Source: a virus. From it: a stretch of DNA of 35,608 nucleotides. This document shows positions 698 to 35,515 of this stretch, in pieces. The DNA lies in the IMG/VR virus record IMGVR_UViG_3300010401_000030, positions 1 to 35,608 of that record, one strand, 5' to 3'. The notes under the pieces are model-generated. The model was not told the origin of the DNA and did not search any database. It saw nothing but the letters and a program-made list of their open reading frames with translations. The position numbers and the translations under genes are program-made. How positions within the stretch are numbered: position 1 is the first letter of the stretch; the number at the start of each line of letters is the position of its first letter.

Positions 698-990
698 AAA
701 ATTTGCAAAAAGAAGCAATGAAAATATTAGATGCTGTAAATGTGAAAGAGATCTTAGACATATCTAGTGATCTTTTTCTAGTTGCAGAATGGATTGAATC
801 TTCGGAAAAGGGTTTGCCTGACGAAGTATTCAACGAAATAAAATTGGAAACAGCTTTTATTTTGAGCCTATTTGCTGAAAAGCATTCTCCTAGCTTGAAC
901 AAAATCATAAATCAATTTCCTGATTTTTGGCTGAGAGTTCAAAATTATAGGAAGCATAAAAAAGAATATGAGGAACTCATCGATGGATGA
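685..990 (+). CDS. Small helical protein of unknown function
   Basis: A 101-residue protein, predicted almost wholly alpha-helical, acidic in the first two thirds and ending in a Lys-rich stretch (NYRKHKKEYEE). I do not recognise the family and see no cysteine cluster, membrane segment or catalytic motif. The start lies 13 bases inside the end of the nuclease gene and the end overlaps the next gene, so it belongs to the tightly packed plus-strand operon. Confidence 0.65.
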   Translation: MSEIENLQKEAMKILDAVNVKEILDISSDLFLVAEWIESSEKGLPDEVFNEIKLETAFILSLFAEKHSPSLNKIINQFPDFWLRVQNYRKHKKEYEELIDG

Positions 991-1207
991 GGAGGAAAAA
1001 ATTCAAAAATATATTATTGTTTCTGCTCTCATTTCCGCTTTATTGATAGCTATTTTTTCTACTATTTTCTTGAGTTGTACAATTTCTTTTCAGAACATTT
1101 CCACGAATGGAAAGGCTGAAGATGTTGTCGACGAAAATCAGGATGCTTCTCCAAATGTTTCTCCTGACATAACTATCCCATTAACAAAACTAAAGGAATA
1201 TGTATGA
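983..1207 (+). CDS. Small single-pass membrane protein
   Basis: A 74-residue protein with a short acidic N terminus (MDEEEKIQK), one strong hydrophobic segment at about residues 9-32 and a polar, Asn/Ser/Asp-rich tail. The segment ends with FLSC, which does not match a normal lipobox. An upstream ATG at 968 is in frame, but the start at 983 has AGGA eight bases before it and overlaps the previous gene by only 8 bases, so I prefer it. The stop overlaps the next gene as ATGA. A lysis or envelope role is possible but unproven. Confidence 0.6.
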   Translation: MDEEEKIQKYIIVSALISALLIAIFSTIFLSCTISFQNISTNGKAEDVVDENQDASPNVSPDITIPLTKLKEYV

Positions 1208-1383
1208 AAGAGTCACCTAAAGCGAAAAAGAAAGTAAAAAAAGTAATGCATGAGTTCAAAGAACACAAGCTGCACAGCGGGTCAAAAAAAGGACCTGTGG
1301 TTACCAATCCTAAACAAGGCATAGCAATTGCTTTATCTGAAGCTAGAAAAGCAGGAGCAAAGGTACCTAAGAAGAAAAAATGA
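1204..1383 (+). CDS. DUF6496-like small basic protein
   Basis: A 59-residue, Lys-rich protein. The pattern KKVKKVMHEFKEHKLHSG, then a short linker and QGIAIALSEARKAG, matches small DUF6496-type proteins that I know from phages and bacteria (function unknown; perhaps nucleic-acid binding from its charge). It is coupled on both sides: its ATG overlaps the previous stop as ATGA, and its own TGA overlaps the next ATG at 1380. The coding sequence is intact and fills what would otherwise be an empty gap in the operon. Family assignment is from memory of the motif. Confidence 0.75.
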   Translation: MKESPKAKKKVKKVMHEFKEHKLHSGSKKGPVVTNPKQGIAIALSEARKAGAKVPKKKK

Positions 1384-8718: not shown

Positions 8719-8925
8719 ATGAAAGGAGAATTTTATACAGTTAAAGAAGTAGCGGAAAAGCTTAAGGTTTGTACGAGAACAATACAATACGCAATAAGAA
8801 AAGGTCGTATACACGCTTGTAGGCCAGGAATTGGTATAAAAGCTCCCTATAGAATTCACGAGGATGAGCTTATAAGAATTCTTATGGTCGATTTTCAAAC
8901 AATTAAAAAGGAAAGAGAGAAATAA
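8719..8925 (+). CDS. Excisionase/MerR-type helix-turn-helix protein
   Basis: A 68-residue DNA-binding protein. YTVKEVAEKLKVCTRTIQYA followed by IRKGRIHACRPG and YRIHEDELIRIL is the standard winged HTH_17 layout of excisionase-like proteins. There is no integrase in the genome, so it is more likely a transcription regulator of the divergent fibre and membrane-protein operons than a true excisionase. It is the first gene of the plus-strand cassette, 3 bases before the next gene. The DNA-binding call is strong; the target is inferred. Confidence 0.8.
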   Translation: MKGEFYTVKEVAEKLKVCTRTIQYAIRKGRIHACRPGIGIKAPYRIHEDELIRILMVDFQTIKKEREK

Positions 8926-8928
8926 GAT

Positions 8929-9213
8929 ATGACTTCTAGACCAAACACTATAACAATAGGTACAAACATGAACGAAAAACAAAGAATTCAATGGCAACCT
9001 TTGGTTGAGTTAATAGTTGTTCTTTTGACAATTTTGGGATCTACAATACCTTTATATTTACATACTGACAGTAAGCTTGAAGCATCCATGTCTAAAATGG
9101 ATGACACATTGCAAGGAATCAGAGAAGAAATTAGAGATTTTCATACAAAACTTGCTCTTCAAGATCAGGAATACAAGAATCATTTAATTCATATGCATAA
9201 GGAATGGAAATGA
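8929..9213 (+). CDS. Membrane-anchored coiled-coil protein, DFHTKL family copy A
   Basis: A 94-residue protein with one hydrophobic segment (about residues 25-45) followed by a coiled coil. Residues 70-86, DFHTKLALQDQEYKNHL, are identical to those of the protein at 27574-27813, and the DFH-x-(K/R)-L core recurs at 35321-35515. Twelve of these 17 shared codons differ silently between the two loci, so the sequence is held by selection. An in-frame ATG at 8968 would give a shorter N terminus closer to the paralogues. It leads a chain of coupled small genes. A holin-like, spanin-like or envelope-scaffold role is possible; none is shown. Confidence 0.7.
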   Translation: MTSRPNTITIGTNMNEKQRIQWQPLVELIVVLLTILGSTIPLYLHTDSKLEASMSKMDDTLQGIREEIRDFHTKLALQDQEYKNHLIHMHKEWK

Positions 9214-9407
9214 CACCTGACGAAAAAAGATCTTATGAATTTCTTTTGCATATCAAATACCTCGTTGATATAGAACATAAATATGGTTTTTTAGATTATG
9301 GAGATATCCAAGAGGTGATTTCTAATGAAATTAGAGGTTTAAAATATTCGGTTGGCGAAAGAATTATAGATAAACATTGTCACGAACAAAAAAATTTAGG
9401 TGAATAA
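9210..9407 (+). CDS. Small soluble protein of unknown function
   Basis: A 65-residue acidic, helical protein (MTPDEKRSYEFLLHIKYLVD...). The ATG at 9210 overlaps the previous TGA as ATGA and has AAGGA at a good distance, so I prefer it to the ATG at 9204, whose Shine-Dalgarno site would be too close. It ends in TAATG overlap with the next gene. There is no membrane segment, which sets it apart from its neighbours. Family not recognised. Confidence 0.6.
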   Translation: MTPDEKRSYEFLLHIKYLVDIEHKYGFLDYGDIQEVISNEIRGLKYSVGERIIDKHCHEQKNLGE

Positions 9408-9607
9408 TGCAAAATGAACAAAAATCAAAGTTAAGTTTTTTAAAAAACCATGCTGATGCGATTGCCATAGTTACAGTTAACTTAGCTGCTATAGCTATTT
9501 TAACAACAATGTGGGTATCCAATTCTCATAGAGTTGATGCTTGTAACGCTAGAATAGATACTACCTATCAACTGATATTAGAACTTTTGAAAGAAAGAAA
9601 GAAATAA
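9407..9607 (+). CDS. Membrane-anchored coiled-coil protein with a RID-LLKER tail
   Basis: A 66-residue protein with a hydrophobic segment at about residues 17-37 and a short charged coil ending in ARIDTTYQLILELLKERKK. I associate this pattern (membrane helix, then RID..Y..ILELLKER) with small proteins of intracellular bacteria and their mobile elements, but cannot confirm it here. It is joined to both neighbours by TAATG overlaps and has AGGTG upstream. It has the same overall design as the DFH family but lacks the DFH motif. Function unknown. Confidence 0.65.
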   Translation: MQNEQKSKLSFLKNHADAIAIVTVNLAAIAILTTMWVSNSHRVDACNARIDTTYQLILELLKERKK

Positions 9608-9693
9608 TGATATTTTTTGTTTATTCAACAATTTTTGGATTTATTTTAGTGCCTTTTTTGTGGTATTTTGGTTCTGGAGACCCTGATTCTTAA
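9607..9693 (+). CDS. 28-residue membrane microprotein
   Basis: The reading frame encodes MIFFVYSTIFGFILVPFLWY and eight more residues, nearly all one hydrophobic helix with an acidic end (GDPDS). Its ATG overlaps the previous stop as TAATG, the same coupling used throughout this cassette, which argues that it is translated. Tiny membrane proteins at the same position follow the coiled-coil proteins at 27574 and 34929. It could be a partner subunit, a lysis peptide or a host-targeting peptide. Confidence 0.55.
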   Translation: MIFFVYSTIFGFILVPFLWYFGSGDPDS

Positions 9694-9706
9694 AAGGAGG
9701 AAAATA

Positions 9707-9871
9707 ATGATTACATTTATAATTATATATATACTATTAAACATAATAATATCTATATTTGGAGCTCATCTTTTTATGAAAGAAGTTCGAAAAGACTTGC
9801 CAAGTCAATCTATTTTTTGTGGTCTGATTGAATGGTTTCTTAATTTTGAAAATTGTAAAGGAAAAAAATAA
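9707..9871 (+). CDS. 54-residue membrane protein
   Basis: A strong N-terminal hydrophobic helix (MITFIIIYILLNIIISIFGA), a basic stretch (KEVRKDLPSQ) and a second aromatic helix (IFCGLIEWFLNFENC) that may lie in or on the membrane. The start at 9707 is fixed by a full AAAGGAGG site seven bases upstream; a longer frame from a TTG at 9668 is possible but unlikely. Its stop overlaps the next ATG as TAATG. The topology is holin-like in size only. Confidence 0.65.
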   Translation: MITFIIIYILLNIIISIFGAHLFMKEVRKDLPSQSIFCGLIEWFLNFENCKGKK

Positions 9872-9936
9872 TGGGTGTTTTAGGTGCTCTTTTATTTGGA
9901 ATGTTTATGTTTTTCTTTTTTTTACTTACTGATTAG
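9871..9936 (+). CDS. 21-residue membrane microprotein
   Basis: A minimal frame encoding one hydrophobic helix: MGVLGALLFGMFMFFFF followed by LLTD. The ATG is shared with the previous stop (TAATG), and the frame runs 11 bases into the 3-prime end of the convergent gene at 9926. It is the last of five membrane proteins in this operon. It is too short for ordinary gene finders, and chance cannot be excluded, but the repeated coupling supports it. Confidence 0.45.
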   Translation: MGVLGALLFGMFMFFFFLLTD

Positions 9937-11524
9937 CATCAAAGTCTTTTTTTCCCATTTCCTCTATCTCTTTAGCTAATATAGTTGCTTGAGAAAAACT
10001 TCCATTCCTAACTTTATCAGCCATTTTTAACCAAAGATTTTGATATTTAGGATTAGTTAAAAACTGAGTTGCTACATATTGAGATAATGCAACAGCTCCA
10101 GACCCAAATCCTGCAATAGCCATATTTTGTGGATTCAATGACAACATTGATTGCGCAACTGCTCCATATTTGGCAAAAGGAAGTCCTTGTTTTAGTAGTC
10201 CACCTTCAATTGCCTTTTCTGATTTTTGTAATTTTTCTCCTATTTTTGACATTAACTTAAAATTTTCTGCTGCTTGTGACCCTAAAGCATCCTTCACAGA
10301 TGCAAAGTTTTTTTCCGAAGAAAGACTCTTGTTTAATTTATTGAAGTCTACCCTATCATTCACATAGGATTTTTCTAGAAGATTATTTAGTTTTTCAGCT
10401 TGATGCAATCGAACCCAACCTGAATTTGCCTTTTCGAAATCATTTGCCAATTGAATTCCACCTCTACCATTATCTCTAAAAGTATCTTTGATGGCATCTT
10501 TAGCTGATTTCATATAAGATTCTTTCTTAGAAGGATCTACCCATTTCCCTATGCGATTAAGAGTTTGATAAAAATTAATAAAAGGTTCTGCGGTTTTACC
10601 TTCAACAGCATTTTTCTTTGCCGTATCCAACATATTTATAAAAGAAATTTCATCAGGAGAATTAGCTAAGGTATTTCTCACATCATCTATTATTTCATCA
10701 ACTTTTTTTGTAAATTTTTCTGGTTTTGATACGACCAGGTTTTTAGCTTCTTTTTTTACCGGATCGAATAGTTTTATAGCCCTACTTTCAACTTCTTGTA
10801 TTCCCTTTTCGAATCCAGGAAAAGACTCAGAAACTATTTGCTGAACGCCTTTTTCTAAACCTTCTTTGGTATTTTCAAATTGTTTTTCTGTAGACTTATA
10901 CATTTTAGCGAGCTTTTCCAAAGAAGATTTTTCTTTCAAAGCATTAGTGGCTAAAGTGATTTCTTTTTCACCTAATCCAGCTTCCTTCATTAATTTCTGT
11001 GCTCGAGCTATCTCTGGAGATTTGTCTGTAAAAGTTTTTTTAGATCCAGGTTTAAATAATCCTACGCCTAGTTCTCCCGCTATCTGTAGCCATTTAGGCG
11101 CTCCAGCTTGTTTTAATCCTTCTCCTGTAGCTCCCATTGCAAAAGCTGTTCGTGGCCCACCCAATAAAGAAAAAGGGTCTGCAGCTGTTTCTATGCCTTT
11201 TCCAACAATAGCCGGGATAACTTGTTCGCTTTCTTCAGGAATATGTTCTCTTATCCATTTTGCAATTCCTCTTTCTGTAGATACATTAGGAGGTTTTCCT
11301 AAAAGACCCATTAAAGAACCTTCTTCTTGGGCTTTAGCGCTTCTTTCTAGAAAAGTAGCTGCTGCATTGCCTAAACCTCTAACCGCAGATTTACCAAATT
11401 GAATAGTGGGACTTTCTTCAATAAAAGAAGGCTTTTTTTCTACATCCTCATACTGATCCCAATCAAACTTAGATGATTTATCAGAAACATCCTCATAATC
11501 ATCCCAATTAAATGAAGTTGTCAT
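9926..11524 (-). CDS. Large candidate internal virion or DNA-ejection protein
   Basis: A 532-residue, Lys/Glu-rich and mostly helical protein. It opens with a tandem pair of short motifs, FNWDDYEDV and FDWDQYEDV (residues 5-28), seen at the N termini of other large phage internal proteins, and carries Gly/Ala-rich helices near residues 45-60 and 450-490 that could insert in a membrane. It has no recognisable lysozyme domain. It overlaps the upstream 379-residue gene as ATGA and ends the virion operon, where podoviruses keep ejection proteins. The role is inferred from position, composition and size. Confidence 0.6.
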   Translation of the reverse strand: MTTSFNWDDYEDVSDKSSKFDWDQYEDVEKKPSFIEESPTIQFGKSAVRGLGNAAATFLERSAKAQEEGSLMGLLGKPPNVSTERGIAKWIREHIPEESEQVIPAIVGKGIETAADPFSLLGGPRTAFAMGATGEGLKQAGAPKWLQIAGELGVGLFKPGSKKTFTDKSPEIARAQKLMKEAGLGEKEITLATNALKEKSSLEKLAKMYKSTEKQFENTKEGLEKGVQQIVSESFPGFEKGIQEVESRAIKLFDPVKKEAKNLVVSKPEKFTKKVDEIIDDVRNTLANSPDEISFINMLDTAKKNAVEGKTAEPFINFYQTLNRIGKWVDPSKKESYMKSAKDAIKDTFRDNGRGGIQLANDFEKANSGWVRLHQAEKLNNLLEKSYVNDRVDFNKLNKSLSSEKNFASVKDALGSQAAENFKLMSKIGEKLQKSEKAIEGGLLKQGLPFAKYGAVAQSMLSLNPQNMAIAGFGSGAVALSQYVATQFLTNPKYQNLWLKMADKVRNGSFSQATILAKEIEEMGKKDFDANQ

Positions 11525-24785: not shown

Positions 24786-25295
24786 CTATGGAAGTGATGC
24801 GCTGTTAGTCTCAGGAGGAGGAGTCTCAACGTGTGGTTCTCCTTCTATAGGTAGTGAGGGATATCGTTTATGTAGCATCTCTGGTTGTCGTGAATTCTTT
24901 AAAGCATCATTCAAAATTGATTTAGCTGCATATCCGGAAGCAGTACATCTTGCAAAGAAATCTCTGATTGCACAAAATATTCTAGTTATAATATTAGTTT
25001 TCCTATCGAAATTATCCATATATAAGTCTTCGATTATTCTTTTTATTGCAAATACCTGGCTCTTTTCTATTATTTTATCAGGATCTTTGACAGCTGGGCA
25101 ATTGTCCAATATATGAATAAGCTTTTCATGTATTTTGTAGATAGAAACTGTACCCTTGTATCCATCAAATTTAGTGTATCGATGACCAAAAAATGTAATG
25201 TTTTGTCGAGCTCTCTTGGAAATTTCTTCTAGTTCAGCTAAAGAAGTGATGTTCTTAAAAGCCGATACAGCATCTTTTTTTAATCTGAAGACCAT
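24786..25295 (-). CDS. Unknown helical protein between terminase and portal
   Basis: A 169-residue protein, mostly helical, with a Pro-rich C-terminal tail (EGEPHVETPPPETNSASLP). The region IIEDLYMDNFDRKT then IITRIFCAIRDFFARC looks like stretches I know from hypothetical proteins of environmental chlamydiae, but I cannot test this here. The frame extends upstream to an ATG at 25370 overlapping the terminase stop, yet AAGGAG lies about seven bases before the ATG at 25295, which decides the start. Such a protein is not normal between TerL and portal and could be host-derived cargo. Confidence 0.6.
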   Translation of the reverse strand: MVFRLKKDAVSAFKNITSLAELEEISKRARQNITFFGHRYTKFDGYKGTVSIYKIHEKLIHILDNCPAVKDPDKIIEKSQVFAIKRIIEDLYMDNFDRKTNIITRIFCAIRDFFARCTASGYAAKSILNDALKNSRQPEMLHKRYPSLPIEGEPHVETPPPETNSASLP

Positions 25296-25366
25296 GGTTT
25301 TCTCCTTGTTAAGGGTACAAATTCCATACTGTATATCTAATATATTCTTGGCAAGAATTTTAAATG

Positions 25367-26662
25367 TCATCTCCAGTAGCTATTTAAAGCCTTCACATCC
25401 TCCGATATTGAAGCGTCGCTTTGGCACTTTGGAAGTCCGACTGCTAGATATCTCATTGCATCCGCAAAATGACTAGACCAATCGTGATGCGGTTTTTGGT
25501 TATAAACTTTGTGTTTGTCATTCCATTCTCTATGGTAGTGCTCTAATGAAGCAATTAATGGCTTGCACTTTTCTTTATTTATATGAACTCTAGAAGCAAG
25601 AATTGCCTTCACAGATTCAATGCCATCAGCTATTAATCCTTTAGGAACCACTGTCACAGGTATTGCCAACTCGTTTAAAATATCCCTTCTAGTGCATCCA
25701 GAACCCAAACCATCATTTTGATCTACATCGTGTGGAAATAAATGAATTCCATACCTATAAGGGCGGGAGTTGAATACATCTTTCATATGTGATAAGGTCT
25801 TATTTCTATAGTTTTCACAGTCAATTATATGAATATTGGTTCCTACAATTTGGAAGAAGATTATCGGATTATCATCATCCCATCCGAGATCGCAAGATGT
25901 ATGTACAAGACGGGATGGATCGTATTTCACTACCCCAATTCTATCATCGCTTTGCATATTCATGAGTAAGTTAGCGTAATAAGACCCTTCAACGCCTCTA
26001 TCGAATGAGCAGTAATACTCTTGAAGAGCTAATTCCTCGCTCATTCCCTCAGCTTTTTCCTTTTCTATGTCTTTAGCAGTTAAAACGTGAGTATCTTCGA
26101 TAGTTAAACGTTCTGCAAACCATCCTTCAGTAACTTGCGCCATCCTGAATAATTCGTGAAAATGATTCTTTCCTCGAGGTGTGCTAATGAAAATAGCCAC
26201 GCCGTTGTTTACTTTCAAAATGGGACGAATGTAGTCCCAAGCGGCGGGATCTTGTATAGCGTACTCAGAAAAAACAACTATTTTTGGATTAGTTCCCATC
26301 AAGCTATCTATGTTGTCAGAGCCTATGAGTTGTATTAAAGAGCCATTTATAAAACGAATCTTCATCTCTTGGGAGTTTTTGTTAGCTATAATTTCAGGTG
26401 GGATGAAATCAAGGAAACGGATGCCATCATTTGTAGTTGAATCCCATATTACCTTTTTAGCTTGAGCGTAAGAAGGCATAACATAAAAACACGTGCAAGG
26501 TTCTTTAAAAAGACTTTTTATGCACCAATTTAAAATGGTAACATCTTTTCCAGAACGTCTATGAGCACACCAAACAACGCGTTTAATTCCTGAATCCAGG
26601 GCTTCAAGAATAGGCATTTGGTAGTAGCGTGGTTCAAATCTATGAGGTAGTTTTACTCTCAT
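25367..26662 (-). CDS. terL: Terminase large subunit
   Basis: A 431-residue protein that cuts and pumps DNA into the capsid. ATPase: a Walker A-like HRRSGKD at residues 34-40, Walker B IVVFSE with E133, and a coupling motif ISTPRG near 159-164. Nuclease: CDLG with D258, HD with D312, and HFADAMRY with D401, the metal-binding set of RNase H-like terminase nucleases. The start overlaps the small subunit stop as ATGA. Family (Terminase_6-like) and role are certain; the packaging type is not. Confidence 0.93.
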   Translation of the reverse strand: MRVKLPHRFEPRYYQMPILEALDSGIKRVVWCAHRRSGKDVTILNWCIKSLFKEPCTCFYVMPSYAQAKKVIWDSTTNDGIRFLDFIPPEIIANKNSQEMKIRFINGSLIQLIGSDNIDSLMGTNPKIVVFSEYAIQDPAAWDYIRPILKVNNGVAIFISTPRGKNHFHELFRMAQVTEGWFAERLTIEDTHVLTAKDIEKEKAEGMSEELALQEYYCSFDRGVEGSYYANLLMNMQSDDRIGVVKYDPSRLVHTSCDLGWDDDNPIIFFQIVGTNIHIIDCENYRNKTLSHMKDVFNSRPYRYGIHLFPHDVDQNDGLGSGCTRRDILNELAIPVTVVPKGLIADGIESVKAILASRVHINKEKCKPLIASLEHYHREWNDKHKVYNQKPHHDWSSHFADAMRYLAVGLPKCQSDASISEDVKALNSYWR

Positions 26663-27471: not shown

Positions 27472-27561
27472 TTATCCTATATCGTCAACAAATTCATAAT
27501 ATATCCAAATCCACATCAAAATGTTCAGGAAAACACCAAAGAGAAATTGTCCTCTACTCAT
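27472..27561 (-). CDS. 29-residue membrane microprotein
   Basis: Encodes MSRGQFLFGVFLNILMWIWI followed by YYEFVDDIG: a short basic start, one hydrophobic helix and an acidic end. AGGG lies before the ATG. It directly follows the DFHTKL-family coiled-coil protein (copy B) and is followed after 2 bases by the next gene, so the operon would be gapless if it is real. Like the 28- and 39-residue proteins of the two other cassettes, it pairs a tiny membrane helix with a membrane-anchored coiled coil. Confidence 0.55.
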   Translation of the reverse strand: MSRGQFLFGVFLNILMWIWIYYEFVDDIG

Positions 27562-27573
27562 AAAATCCCTATA

Positions 27574-27813
27574 CTACTTTACTTCCTTGTGCATATTCAT
27601 TAGATGGTTTTTATACTCTTGGTCTTGTAGAGCTAACTTAGTGTGAAAATCTTTCATTTCATTTTGAATAGCTTTTATCATAGCATTCGTTTCTTCGCGA
27701 AATGAATCTAATTTAGTGTCCATATGCCTCATATCAGCCCTAGATTCTGTTCTATTCCATATAAATAGTCCAAAAACTCCGATAAAAAATATTGCAAATT
27801 GTGTCCATTCCAT
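27574..27813 (-). CDS. Membrane-anchored coiled-coil protein, DFHTKL family copy B
   Basis: A 79-residue protein: N-terminal MEWTQ, hydrophobic segment at about residues 5-20, ESRAD at 23-27, then a coiled coil with DFHTKLALQDQEYKNHL at 55-71. Copy C at 35321 shares MEWTQ, W-x-R-x-ESRAD and DFH; copy A at 8929 shares the 17-residue block. An upstream in-frame ATG at 27858 exists, but AAGGAG about eight bases before 27813 and the match to copy C fix the start. It follows the partition genes by 2 bases. Role unknown; perhaps membrane-bound structural or lysis protein. Confidence 0.75.
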   Translation of the reverse strand: MEWTQFAIFFIGVFGLFIWNRTESRADMRHMDTKLDSFREETNAMIKAIQNEMKDFHTKLALQDQEYKNHLMNMHKEVK

Positions 27814-27815
27814 TT

Positions 27816-28037
27816 TTATTCTCCTTTTAATTTTTGTTGTATCGTCTGCAAAATCCAACCCGTCTTTGAAATCCCGACAGTATTCTCCATAAATTCATCA
27901 ATTTCCCTCGACATCTTTTTTGGTAGACGTAAAGTAAATCTGACGAATTCCTCATTAGATTCAACATCAGATTTAACATTTCCCCCTTTTTCAATAATTC
28001 GATCAATTTCTCTTGGTTTAAGTTGTTTTATCGTCAT
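27816..28037 (-). CDS. Ribbon-helix-helix partner of ParA
   Basis: A 73-residue protein. The N terminus is a basic, flexible arm; the core VRFTLRLPKKMSREIDEFME then GISKTGWILQTIQQKL is a ribbon-helix-helix DNA-binding fold, with the beta strand at about residues 32-38. It follows parA by 22 bases with AAGGAG upstream. In ParA/ParG- or Omega-type systems such a protein binds the centromere near its own promoter, stimulates the ATPase and represses the operon; I infer the same here. A CopG-like copy regulator is the alternative. Confidence 0.75.
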   Translation of the reverse strand: MTIKQLKPREIDRIIEKGGNVKSDVESNEEFVRFTLRLPKKMSREIDEFMENTVGISKTGWILQTIQQKLKGE

Positions 28038-28059: not shown

Positions 28060-28719
28060 TTATGATAATAAACTACATGCTTTAGGTGTATAAATGTAGT
28101 CATATAGACATGTCATTTCCGTAATGGATTTTATATCTTTCGTTTTTAATTCTGAAACTCCAAGACCCTCAGAAGCTGCGTTTCCGAATGCTTTTCTATA
28201 TCCTATCGTACAAGGAACGCACTCTAAGTCTTCAAATTCTTTTAGCACTTCCATTGTTGACTGATTATCTTCTCCTCTAGAATCTGCTTGGTTTATTACA
28301 GCTATGCATCTCAGATCAGAATTTACACTCTTTATTTCGGCTATCATATTTCTGAGAGGTCCAACAGTCCAAATATCAAGAGATCTGGGCTTGAATGGAA
28401 TTACGAATATATCGGCTATTGTGAGAGCTGATCGTTGGCTAGTAGTATCTCTTCCTCCAACGTCTATTATAACATCGTCGTAGTCTTTAGCCATTTTCTG
28501 AATCTGATTATTTACTGCTTTTCCAGAAAGTTCGATGGTTGTGAATTTTGTTTGATTTTCAGAATCTTCTCTTTGTTGGGCCCAATCACAAGAAGACTTT
28601 TGTTCGTCTGCATCAACTAGTAAGACTTTCTTACCAGCTGAAGATCTCATTACGGTTAAATTTGTGGCTAGAGTGGTTTTACCACTTCCGCCCTTGATTC
28701 CACCAAATACTATAATCAT
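28060..28719 (-). CDS. parA: ParA-family partition ATPase
   Basis: A 219-residue protein with the deviant Walker A KGGSGKTT (residues 9-16), D36 in VDADEQKSSCDW, Walker B VIIDVGGRD (83-91) and a conserved IADIFVIPFKPRSLDIW (101-117). There is no N-terminal HTH, so it is the small type Ib class, which relies on a separate DNA-binding partner. It moves plasmid DNA over the nucleoid and is not needed by strictly lytic phages, so its presence argues for a plasmid stage. It has a good promoter with a dyad site just upstream. Confidence 0.9.
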   Translation of the reverse strand: MIIVFGGIKGGSGKTTLATNLTVMRSSAGKKVLLVDADEQKSSCDWAQQREDSENQTKFTTIELSGKAVNNQIQKMAKDYDDVIIDVGGRDTTSQRSALTIADIFVIPFKPRSLDIWTVGPLRNMIAEIKSVNSDLRCIAVINQADSRGEDNQSTMEVLKEFEDLECVPCTIGYRKAFGNAASEGLGVSELKTKDIKSITEMTCLYDYIYTPKACSLLS

Positions 28720-34928: not shown

Positions 34929-35183
34929 ATGACACATGAAAAGAAGTTGGACATATTTGAAAAATACGGACAAACAATAGTAATCATATGCACCATTTTA
35001 TCTACGGTTTGTGGATCTTTGATATGGATGAATGGAAAATTTAATGACATTGATGAAAAATTTGCAATTGTTGATAAGGAAATGGAAATTCGATTTGCAA
35101 ATATGGAAAAGGATATGGCCATAATCAAGACAGTACTTTTAATGAAGAAAATATTACCTTCAGAACTTGCTAAAGACCAGTAA
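34929..35183 (+). CDS. Membrane-anchored coiled-coil protein
   Basis: An 84-residue protein with a hydrophobic segment at about residues 15-34 (GQTIVIICTILSTVCGSLIW) and a long charged coil (DIDEKFAIVDKEMEIRFANM). It has the same design as the DFH-family proteins, but lacks the DFH motif and ESRAD. AGGAG stands about five bases before the ATG. Its stop overlaps the next ATG as TAATG. Function unknown; part of the third small-membrane-protein cassette. Confidence 0.7.
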   Translation: MTHEKKLDIFEKYGQTIVIICTILSTVCGSLIWMNGKFNDIDEKFAIVDKEMEIRFANMEKDMAIIKTVLLMKKILPSELAKDQ

Positions 35184-35302
35184 TGCAATTACTTTACTTG
35201 TTATGTACATTTTTCATAATATATCTTCTTATTTCAATACTATGGGAGTTGAGTGAGATACGATGTTCCATTGAGAAATCAAAAGATCAAGAAAAAAAGT
35301 AA
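35183..35302 (+). CDS. 39-residue membrane microprotein
   Basis: Encodes MQLLYLLCTFFIIYLLISIL, then an acidic-basic tail (WELSEIRCSIEKSKDQEKK). One membrane helix is followed by a short charged tail. The ATG overlaps the previous stop as TAATG, as in the 8929-9936 cassette. It fills the gap exactly before the copy C gene, whose AAGGAG follows after 9 bases. The conserved coupling is the main evidence that it is translated. Confidence 0.6.
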   Translation: MQLLYLLCTFFIIYLLISILWELSEIRCSIEKSKDQEKK

Positions 35303-35320
35303 ATTCAAAAAGGAGAAATT

Positions 35321-35515
35321 ATGGAATGGACACAAGTTTTAGCAATAATAGGATCAAATATAGTTCTATTTTTATGGGTAAGAGCTGAATCAAGAGCAGA
35401 TCACAGAGCTTTAGAGAACTGGACAAAAACAATGCTCAGTTCAATTCAACAAGAGATTAAGGATTTCCACGGTAGACTTTGTGCCATTGAGGAAAGGAAT
35501 AGAGAAAAAAAGTAA
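35321..35515 (+). CDS. Membrane-anchored coiled-coil protein, DFH family copy C
   Basis: A 64-residue protein: MEWTQ start, hydrophobic segment at about residues 6-20, W-x-R-x-ESRAD (19-27) and a coil ending with QQEIKDFHGRLCAIEERNRE. It matches copy B at 27574-27813 in the first 30 residues and in the DFH-x-(K/R)-L core, but lacks the QDQEYKNHL block. Both genes have the same leader, AAGGAG then A/T bases then ATGGAATGGAC. The gene ends inside the terminal repeat, at position 30 of the circular map. Confidence 0.75.
   Translation: MEWTQVLAIIGSNIVLFLWVRAESRADHRALENWTKTMLSSIQQEIKDFHGRLCAIEERNREKK

Follow-up and report, generated by a model that had tools for sequence, protein, structure and literature searches.

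Short phage proteins that join a membrane helix to a charged or coiled segment have been described in several forms. BhlA/UviB proteins (PF10960) are about 70 aa long and carry an N-terminal membrane helix which is followed by a charged coil. In the Rz i-spanin, the N-terminal membrane helix leads into a coiled coil in the periplasm, and in XhlA-type proteins the coiled coil comes first and is followed by a C-terminal membrane helix. In phi29 p16.7/p1, a membrane anchor is combined with an oligomerizing coil facing the cytoplasm. Holin-like proteins of Gordonia phages, which are encoded in small-gene clusters, have one membrane helix, an outward N-terminus and a cytoplasmic C-terminal domain (PMC9671378).

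Phage membrane proteins are also encoded between gene 16 and gene 9 of P22, in a region which contains sieA and immI, is very variable and lies largely outside the late message (PMC8022706). The sieA/immI region is separately regulated and codes for inner-membrane protein(s) (PMC8022706, PMC10883804). In the following, these systems are compared with cassettes of rod-like membrane proteins and hydrophobic microproteins that occupy three sites of an uncultured phage genome.

The phage genome and its three cassette sites

The window, meaning the whole stretch of 35,608 nucleotides that was analyzed, is a complete circular IMG/VR record (IMGVR_UViG_3300010401_000030) with a terminal direct repeat of 123 bp. 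By gene content it is a short-tailed phage of the P22-like kind that also has plasmid functions; the genes include a portal (phrog_156, E=1e-54), a large terminase, a major head protein, RecT, RecE/YqaJ, ParA and a replication-initiator-like protein. The group to which it belongs appears to consist of 35-45 kb P22-like phage-plasmids, which are linked here to Chlamydiota.

Three further genes of the window may be mentioned for themselves. A small lipoprotein with the lipobox FLSC and the family pattern CTYSxxMVHTDGxAxDVVD is encoded at 968-1207 (plus strand), and lipoproteins of this type are found in the relatives L072, L106, L098, L105, L062 and G287; it could be an outer-membrane partner in lysis or exclusion. 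The small basic DUF6496 protein at 1204-1383 (plus strand) is among the more widely shared small genes of the fetched loci. In the terminase-portal interval, a 194-aa protein (24786-25370, minus strand) has no Pfam or PHROG match and a 51% identical homolog in the near relative G273.

Site A consists of the following genes, the tip families being described in the next section:

8719-8925, plus strand: HTH_17/excisionase-like regulator (Pfam HTH_17, E=5.5e-12), first gene of the site-A island
8929-9213, plus strand: DFH-box protein A, 94 aa, with membrane helix, helical shaft and tip DFHTKLALQDQEYKNHLIHMHKEWK
9204-9407, plus strand: 67-aa soluble protein, coupled to its neighbors, with no homolog in the fetched loci
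9407-9607, plus strand: LLK-tip protein, 66 aa, with membrane helix and ARIDTTYQLILELLKERKK
9607-9693, plus strand: 28-aa hydrophobic microprotein; its ORF overlaps the LLK stop codon
9707-9871, plus strand: 54-aa single-helix membrane protein, an orphan among the fetched loci
9871-9936, plus strand: 21-aa hydrophobic microprotein at the island end, converging on gene 9926-11524

A sequence-only reading of the window had noted six coupled plus-strand genes at 8929-9936, five of them with a membrane helix, and this description holds as given: a hydrophobic helix is present in five of the six ORFs, and their junctions are start/stop overlaps or gaps of at most 13 bp. The 66-aa LLK-tip protein has homologs in L082, L091 and L060, and island-terminal microproteins of 21-29 aa also occur in G273, L005, L031, L049 and L083. 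Scans of site A for promoters and terminators gave nothing exceeding chance.

Site A is an antisense island, with putative ejection-protein genes on one side and the tail fiber on the other. By gene order only, gene 9926-11524 may encode a gp16-like ejection protein; it has no match in PHROG or PDB. Both flanking long genes are antisense in 40 of the 69 scorable DFH islands, whose neighbors (tail-fiber genes and putative internal-ejection genes) are conserved and which have HTH_17 upstream in 18 loci. The HTH_17 gene is the constant element of the island, and the cargo differs between phages. At the same position, G125 encodes a regulator homolog with 70% identity, and HTH_17 genes lie in the equivalent gap of G285, G286, G292, G293 and G299 (Pfam hits in the first four). 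Among relatives ascertained through the portal that carry neither DFH nor LLK genes, this gap may hold HTH_17 alone (G293, G286), HTH_17 and a P63C protein (G299) or other cargo, and gaps with cargo often end in a microprotein. The gap measures only about 400 bp in some portal relatives.

P63C-domain proteins lie in or adjoining the island in two further loci (L296 8760-9671, minus strand; L017 4703-5725, plus strand) and are a possible antirepressor parallel to P22 ant. The site-A gap of G294 holds an OMP_b-brl outer-membrane beta-barrel-like protein (L294 2714-3319, minus strand), then a 32-aa microprotein.

Sites B and C are composed as follows:

27472-27561, minus strand: 29-aa hydrophobic microprotein, 12 bp past protein B
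27574-27813, minus strand: DFH-box protein B, 79 aa, the next gene after parA and the RHH gene
27816-28037, minus strand: RHH/Arc-like small DNA-binding protein (PHROG Arc-like repressor, E=0.0037), upstream of protein B
28060-28719, minus strand: ParA-like partition ATPase (phrog_164, E=1e-39; Pfam AAA_31, E=4e-19)
34929-35183, plus strand: IKT-tip protein, 84 aa, with membrane helix and NMEKDMAIIKTVLLMKKILPSELAKDQ; 12 homologs aligned
35183-35302, plus strand: 39-aa hydrophobic microprotein, whose ORF overlaps the IKT stop codon; the G273 copy is 100% identical
35321-35515, plus strand: 64-aa DFH-box protein C, a cassette subject to gain and loss

The recurrence of a short membrane-anchored coiled coil and a microprotein at 27472-27813 and 34929-35515, as first read, stands for both sites with one change of detail: the 39-aa microprotein of site C lies between the 84-aa protein of a sister family, which it follows, and the 64-aa DFH-box protein. 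The 29-aa microprotein of site B has a G273 homolog that is 81% identical and carries an in-frame 6-bp insertion. The gene order parA-RHH-DFH recurs in L085 and in the more distant L069, and recT/yqaJ adjoin site C. An ortholog of the 84-aa IKT protein is encoded on the Chlamydiota-binned phage contig G125:C19.

Tip-bearing membrane rods and their coupled microproteins

Proteins A (94 aa), B (79 aa) and C (64 aa) are homologous (E 1e-41, 9e-10 and 1e-4) and, as judged by sequence comparison, belong to a family not described before, for which we introduce the name DFH-box. In each member, one membrane helix at the N-terminus is followed by a continuous, charged helical shaft, and the C-terminus carries a tip of near-invariant sequence, E[MI]KDFHGRLCAIEERNK (tip peptide DFHGRLCAIEERNK), in which D, F, H and the following L are invariant throughout a 38-member alignment. 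Searches of uncultured viral contigs yielded 80 + 26 loci and about 160 ORFs of the family. Two sister families have the same layout and different tips, RTDxLYEMFIDLLK in LLK (31 members in the fetched loci and 49 further loci) and IKTVLxMKxIMPxELA in IKT (fuller form EKDxAxIKTVLIMKxIMPxELA); the viral searches for both used single proteins as queries. Together, the three families cover about 150 uncultured viral loci, about 100 of them for DFH alone. The genes can stand in tandem, with nine successive genes of the DFH/LLK kind in L015 and six or more in L080.

Only chance-level matches to the three families were obtained in Pfam, NCBIfam, PADLOC, PHROGs and PDB. For DFH, cultured phages gave no match above chance and plasmids none; phrog_1009, which matches all 14 control genomes, is uninformative. 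The first reading had proposed a recurrent cassette of membrane coiled coil and tiny partner without a described counterpart, and both the family searches and the replicated pairing enrichment given below bear this out; matches that would place all partners in one holin or XhlA-type family were not found.

The DFH rods are under strong purifying selection, with dN of 0.03-0.25 against dS of 0.26 to saturation in same-length pairs (two near-identical pairs excluded). This direct evidence replaces the earlier argument that three copies in one genome are costly and therefore probably matter. Proteins A and B have unrelated anchors and a common tip, over which 14 synonymous and 3 non-synonymous codon differences are found in 25 codons. 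Since selection on the tip is so strongly purifying, a conserved partner is suggested for it, and not an arms race.

AlphaFold2 models protein C as one helix (residues 3-63, mean pLDDT 94.6). In 81 DFH proteins with a recognizable membrane-end motif, the distance from this motif to the DFH box takes a limited set of values, namely 25 (22 proteins), 29 (12), 32 (21) and 36 residues (16), and more rarely 39 (1), 40 (2), 43 (5), 47 (1) and 50 (1), with none between. These spacings are sums of 4, 7 and 11, steps which keep the face of a coiled coil; the independent events behind the pattern are fewer than the proteins through shared descent, and many unrelated contigs are covered. The shaft probably oligomerizes as a coiled coil. 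In 140 of 155 DFH and 61 of 70 LLK proteins, lysine and arginine are more frequent beyond the membrane helix than before it, and a cytoplasmic rod is therefore predicted; the topology of DFH, LLK and IKT proteins would accordingly be N-out, C-in.

The pairing of microproteins with rods is real. A hydrophobic ORF of 18-45 aa starting between -8 and +30 bp from the gene stop follows 36 of 179 family genes, compared with 35 of 1094 control genes from these loci (Fisher p=2.6e-14), and the enrichment was replicated in later loci found with LLK/IKT queries (14/67 versus 14/411, p=2.6e-6). Most of these ORFs overlap the stop codon of the gene before them. Conservation of the microproteins in relatives, which the sequence-only reading had made a point of, is one of position and character, and likeness in sequence is only occasional, as between L029 and L089 (dN 0.20, dS 0.87). 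Within the membrane, the coupled microproteins probably form complexes with their rods.

Turnover, patchy presence and host

The near relative G273 is 90-99% identical in the flanks of the cassettes. At site C, it cleanly lacks protein C between 14-bp direct repeats (GAAAAAAAGTAAAT), which consist of the 3' ends of genes that follow one another. The C-terminal half of protein B is replaced at site B, and site A holds other members, of which two have a 21-aa microprotein behind them. Among 20 portal-ascertained relatives, DFH is present in 5, LLK in 7 and neither in 10. DFH and LLK genes are classed as accessory because half of these relatives carry neither. In the 49 near-full-length records tested, all of which were found through DFH, there are 1-7 DFH copies per genome. 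The cassettes are accessory (moron-type) genes that are exchanged by recombination.

The host of the phage is probably a member of the Chlamydiota, to judge from where related sequences occur. A DFH query of 84,980 species genomes gave five loci, of which four belong to Chlamydiae MAGs. The fifth, in a Thermoproteota MAG (L111 1-3346), is probably a mis-binned phage fragment with the order RecT-YqaJ-DFH and 91% identity to L072. Within 234 Chlamydiota genomes, DFH is present in 7 and the window's portal in 9; the Chlamydiota assembly G125 contains, on a 40.7-kb contig for which a binning error is possible, a portal with 86% identity.

Solitary DFH genes also lie amid housekeeping genes on Chlamydiota contigs (L113 8001-8312, L120 1492-1707, L112 7908-8252). 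From our reading of the sequences, we take the neighbors to be aroB/aroDE and a PEBP gene in L112, rpe, efp and accC in L113, and an ftsY-like gene in L120. One of these three solitary genes has repeated 11-residue units in its shaft. The chlamydial phages described in the literature found are small ssDNA microviruses, and no tailed chlamydial phage is described in the literature searched. Groups of phage-derived genes have been reported on chlamydial plasmids (PMC7846284).

Readings of function and the comparison with P22

We tentatively regard the cassettes as accessory rods resembling superinfection-exclusion proteins, which is the best explanation available to us even if it falls somewhat short of being probable. 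Like SieA in P22, rods made in the carrier cell would protect it against related phages; they would interfere late in DNA entry, or at some other early step linked to the membrane. The shaft would keep the conserved tip on the cytoplasmic side, at one of a few set distances from the membrane, and the variety of tips and shaft lengths would serve against a variety of rival phages. Position, regulation, turnover, patchiness and the orphan chromosomal copies make exclusion the preferred single reading. Counted in its favor are the antisense position of the island, the HTH_17 regulator that stays while cassettes turn over, the P63C protein of some islands, and, as a link to the carrier state, the location of protein B after parA-RHH, also seen in L069. 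The rod features are counted with these, namely the single modeled helix, the quantized spacing and the predicted cytoplasmic side. Counted against it are the purifying selection on the tip, the assignment of the gp16-like gene by order only and the location of sites B and C away from the site-A position; a variable island would also suit anti-defense or host-modifying genes. Profile searches of Pfam, PHROG and NCBIfam gave no significant match to SieA or to other exclusion proteins.

The nearest rival, and so regarded because the tip is so constant, is host takeover or anti-defense, in which the invariant tip would attach to a conserved host protein at the membrane and block or divert its action, the target being division, secretion or a membrane-acting defense effector. 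We consider this unlikely, although it is favored by a near-invariant tip under purifying selection that A and B share despite unrelated anchors, and patchy, swappable cassettes with a predicted cytoplasmic rod suit anti-defense as well. Weak matches to an FtsB-like architecture (5 of 38 members, E 0.01-0.1) point the same way, but no match to a defense system or target was obtained, and an inhibitor of the host would hardly be expected to have orphan copies on chlamydial chromosomes. Still less likely is a membrane tether, by which oligomeric rods would fix replication or ParA-DNA complexes to the membrane, as has been proposed for phi29 p16.7/p1. ParA and a replication-initiator-like protein are encoded in the window, site B directly follows parA-RHH as in L069 and L085, site C lies beside recT/yqaJ, and the rod is predicted to be cytoplasmic; most copies, however, occupy the site-A island away from parA and replication genes, parA adjoins DFH in few fetched loci, and 10 of the 20 portal relatives lack both DFH and LLK. 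Unlike p16.7/p1, DFH proteins have no DNA-binding domain and an accessory distribution.

A role in lysis, for which rods and microproteins would have to act like holins or pinholins, independently of an endolysin and in a host without a normal cell-wall sacculus, appears more improbable again. It would agree with the failure to recognize an endolysin among the window proteins tested, with the count of 0 for Phage_lysozyme and Amidase_2 in 49 related viral records, and with an architecture resembling that of BhlA. Yet PF10960 gave no hit for the window proteins and matched 0 of 49 related genomes at E<=1, and DFH differs from BhlA/UviB in being patchy, in occupying several transcription units and in having no endolysin adjacent. 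The single-helix N-out/C-in topology is also described for the Gordonia phage holin-like proteins (PMC9671378), which, however, lack a predicted coiled coil and are encoded next to lysA/lysB, whereas DFH proteins have a long shaft, a conserved tip and no lysin. Half of the portal relatives do without either main family, some with a site-A gap of about 400 bp; DFH and LLK are thus optional and therefore poor candidates for lysis genes. Furthermore, copies are antisense to the late genes or lie in the parA operon, in three different transcription units, and up to nine occur in tandem with no endolysin near the cassettes. Two related candidates were also considered. The small lipoprotein at 968-1207 had suggested an i-spanin reading; this lipoprotein is not adjacent to the DFH gene, and the coil is predicted, by charge only (140/155), to be cytoplasmic, which would speak against such a reading. 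An XhlA-type assignment conflicts with the N-terminal membrane helix of DFH proteins. Finally, that the ORFs are chance hydrophobic frames in AT-rich DNA is hardly credible. In favor of this idea, the microproteins are very short and seldom resemble one another in sequence, but the microprotein enrichment was replicated, and for the rods the idea is already refuted by dN well below dS and by a tip conserved across about 100 loci.

Of the three functions initially suggested, exclusion thus fits best, lysis fits poorly, and attachment of the phage plasmid to the membrane is possible for site B. Should exclusion be the correct reading, the cassettes would open a first way to study how phages compete within an obligate intracellular host, and would offer a compact model in which to ask by what means such a rod, with its conserved tip, blocks the entry of DNA. 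Whatever the function, coiled-coil spacing and microprotein pairing provide testable structural predictions, for a group now linked to Chlamydiota, whose tailed phages have no described biology in the literature searched. It is conceivable, if rather doubtful, that interchangeable anchors, quantized shafts, a few universal tips and microproteins make up a new functional class, a combinatorial layer of exclusion or immunity; in the same doubtful reading, this layer would be common to the tailed phages of Chlamydiota and the chlamydial chromosome.

We know of no description of SieA as a coiled-coil rod or with a coupled microprotein. The regulator also differs, being HTH_17 at site A and Mnt/Arc in P22, and DFH members are present at two other sites, unlike P22 sieA/immI. 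What site A shares with the sieA/immI region is its separate regulation, its coding for membrane proteins and its place between ejection-protein genes, here putative and assigned by order, and the tailspike or fiber gene, together with its hypervariability.
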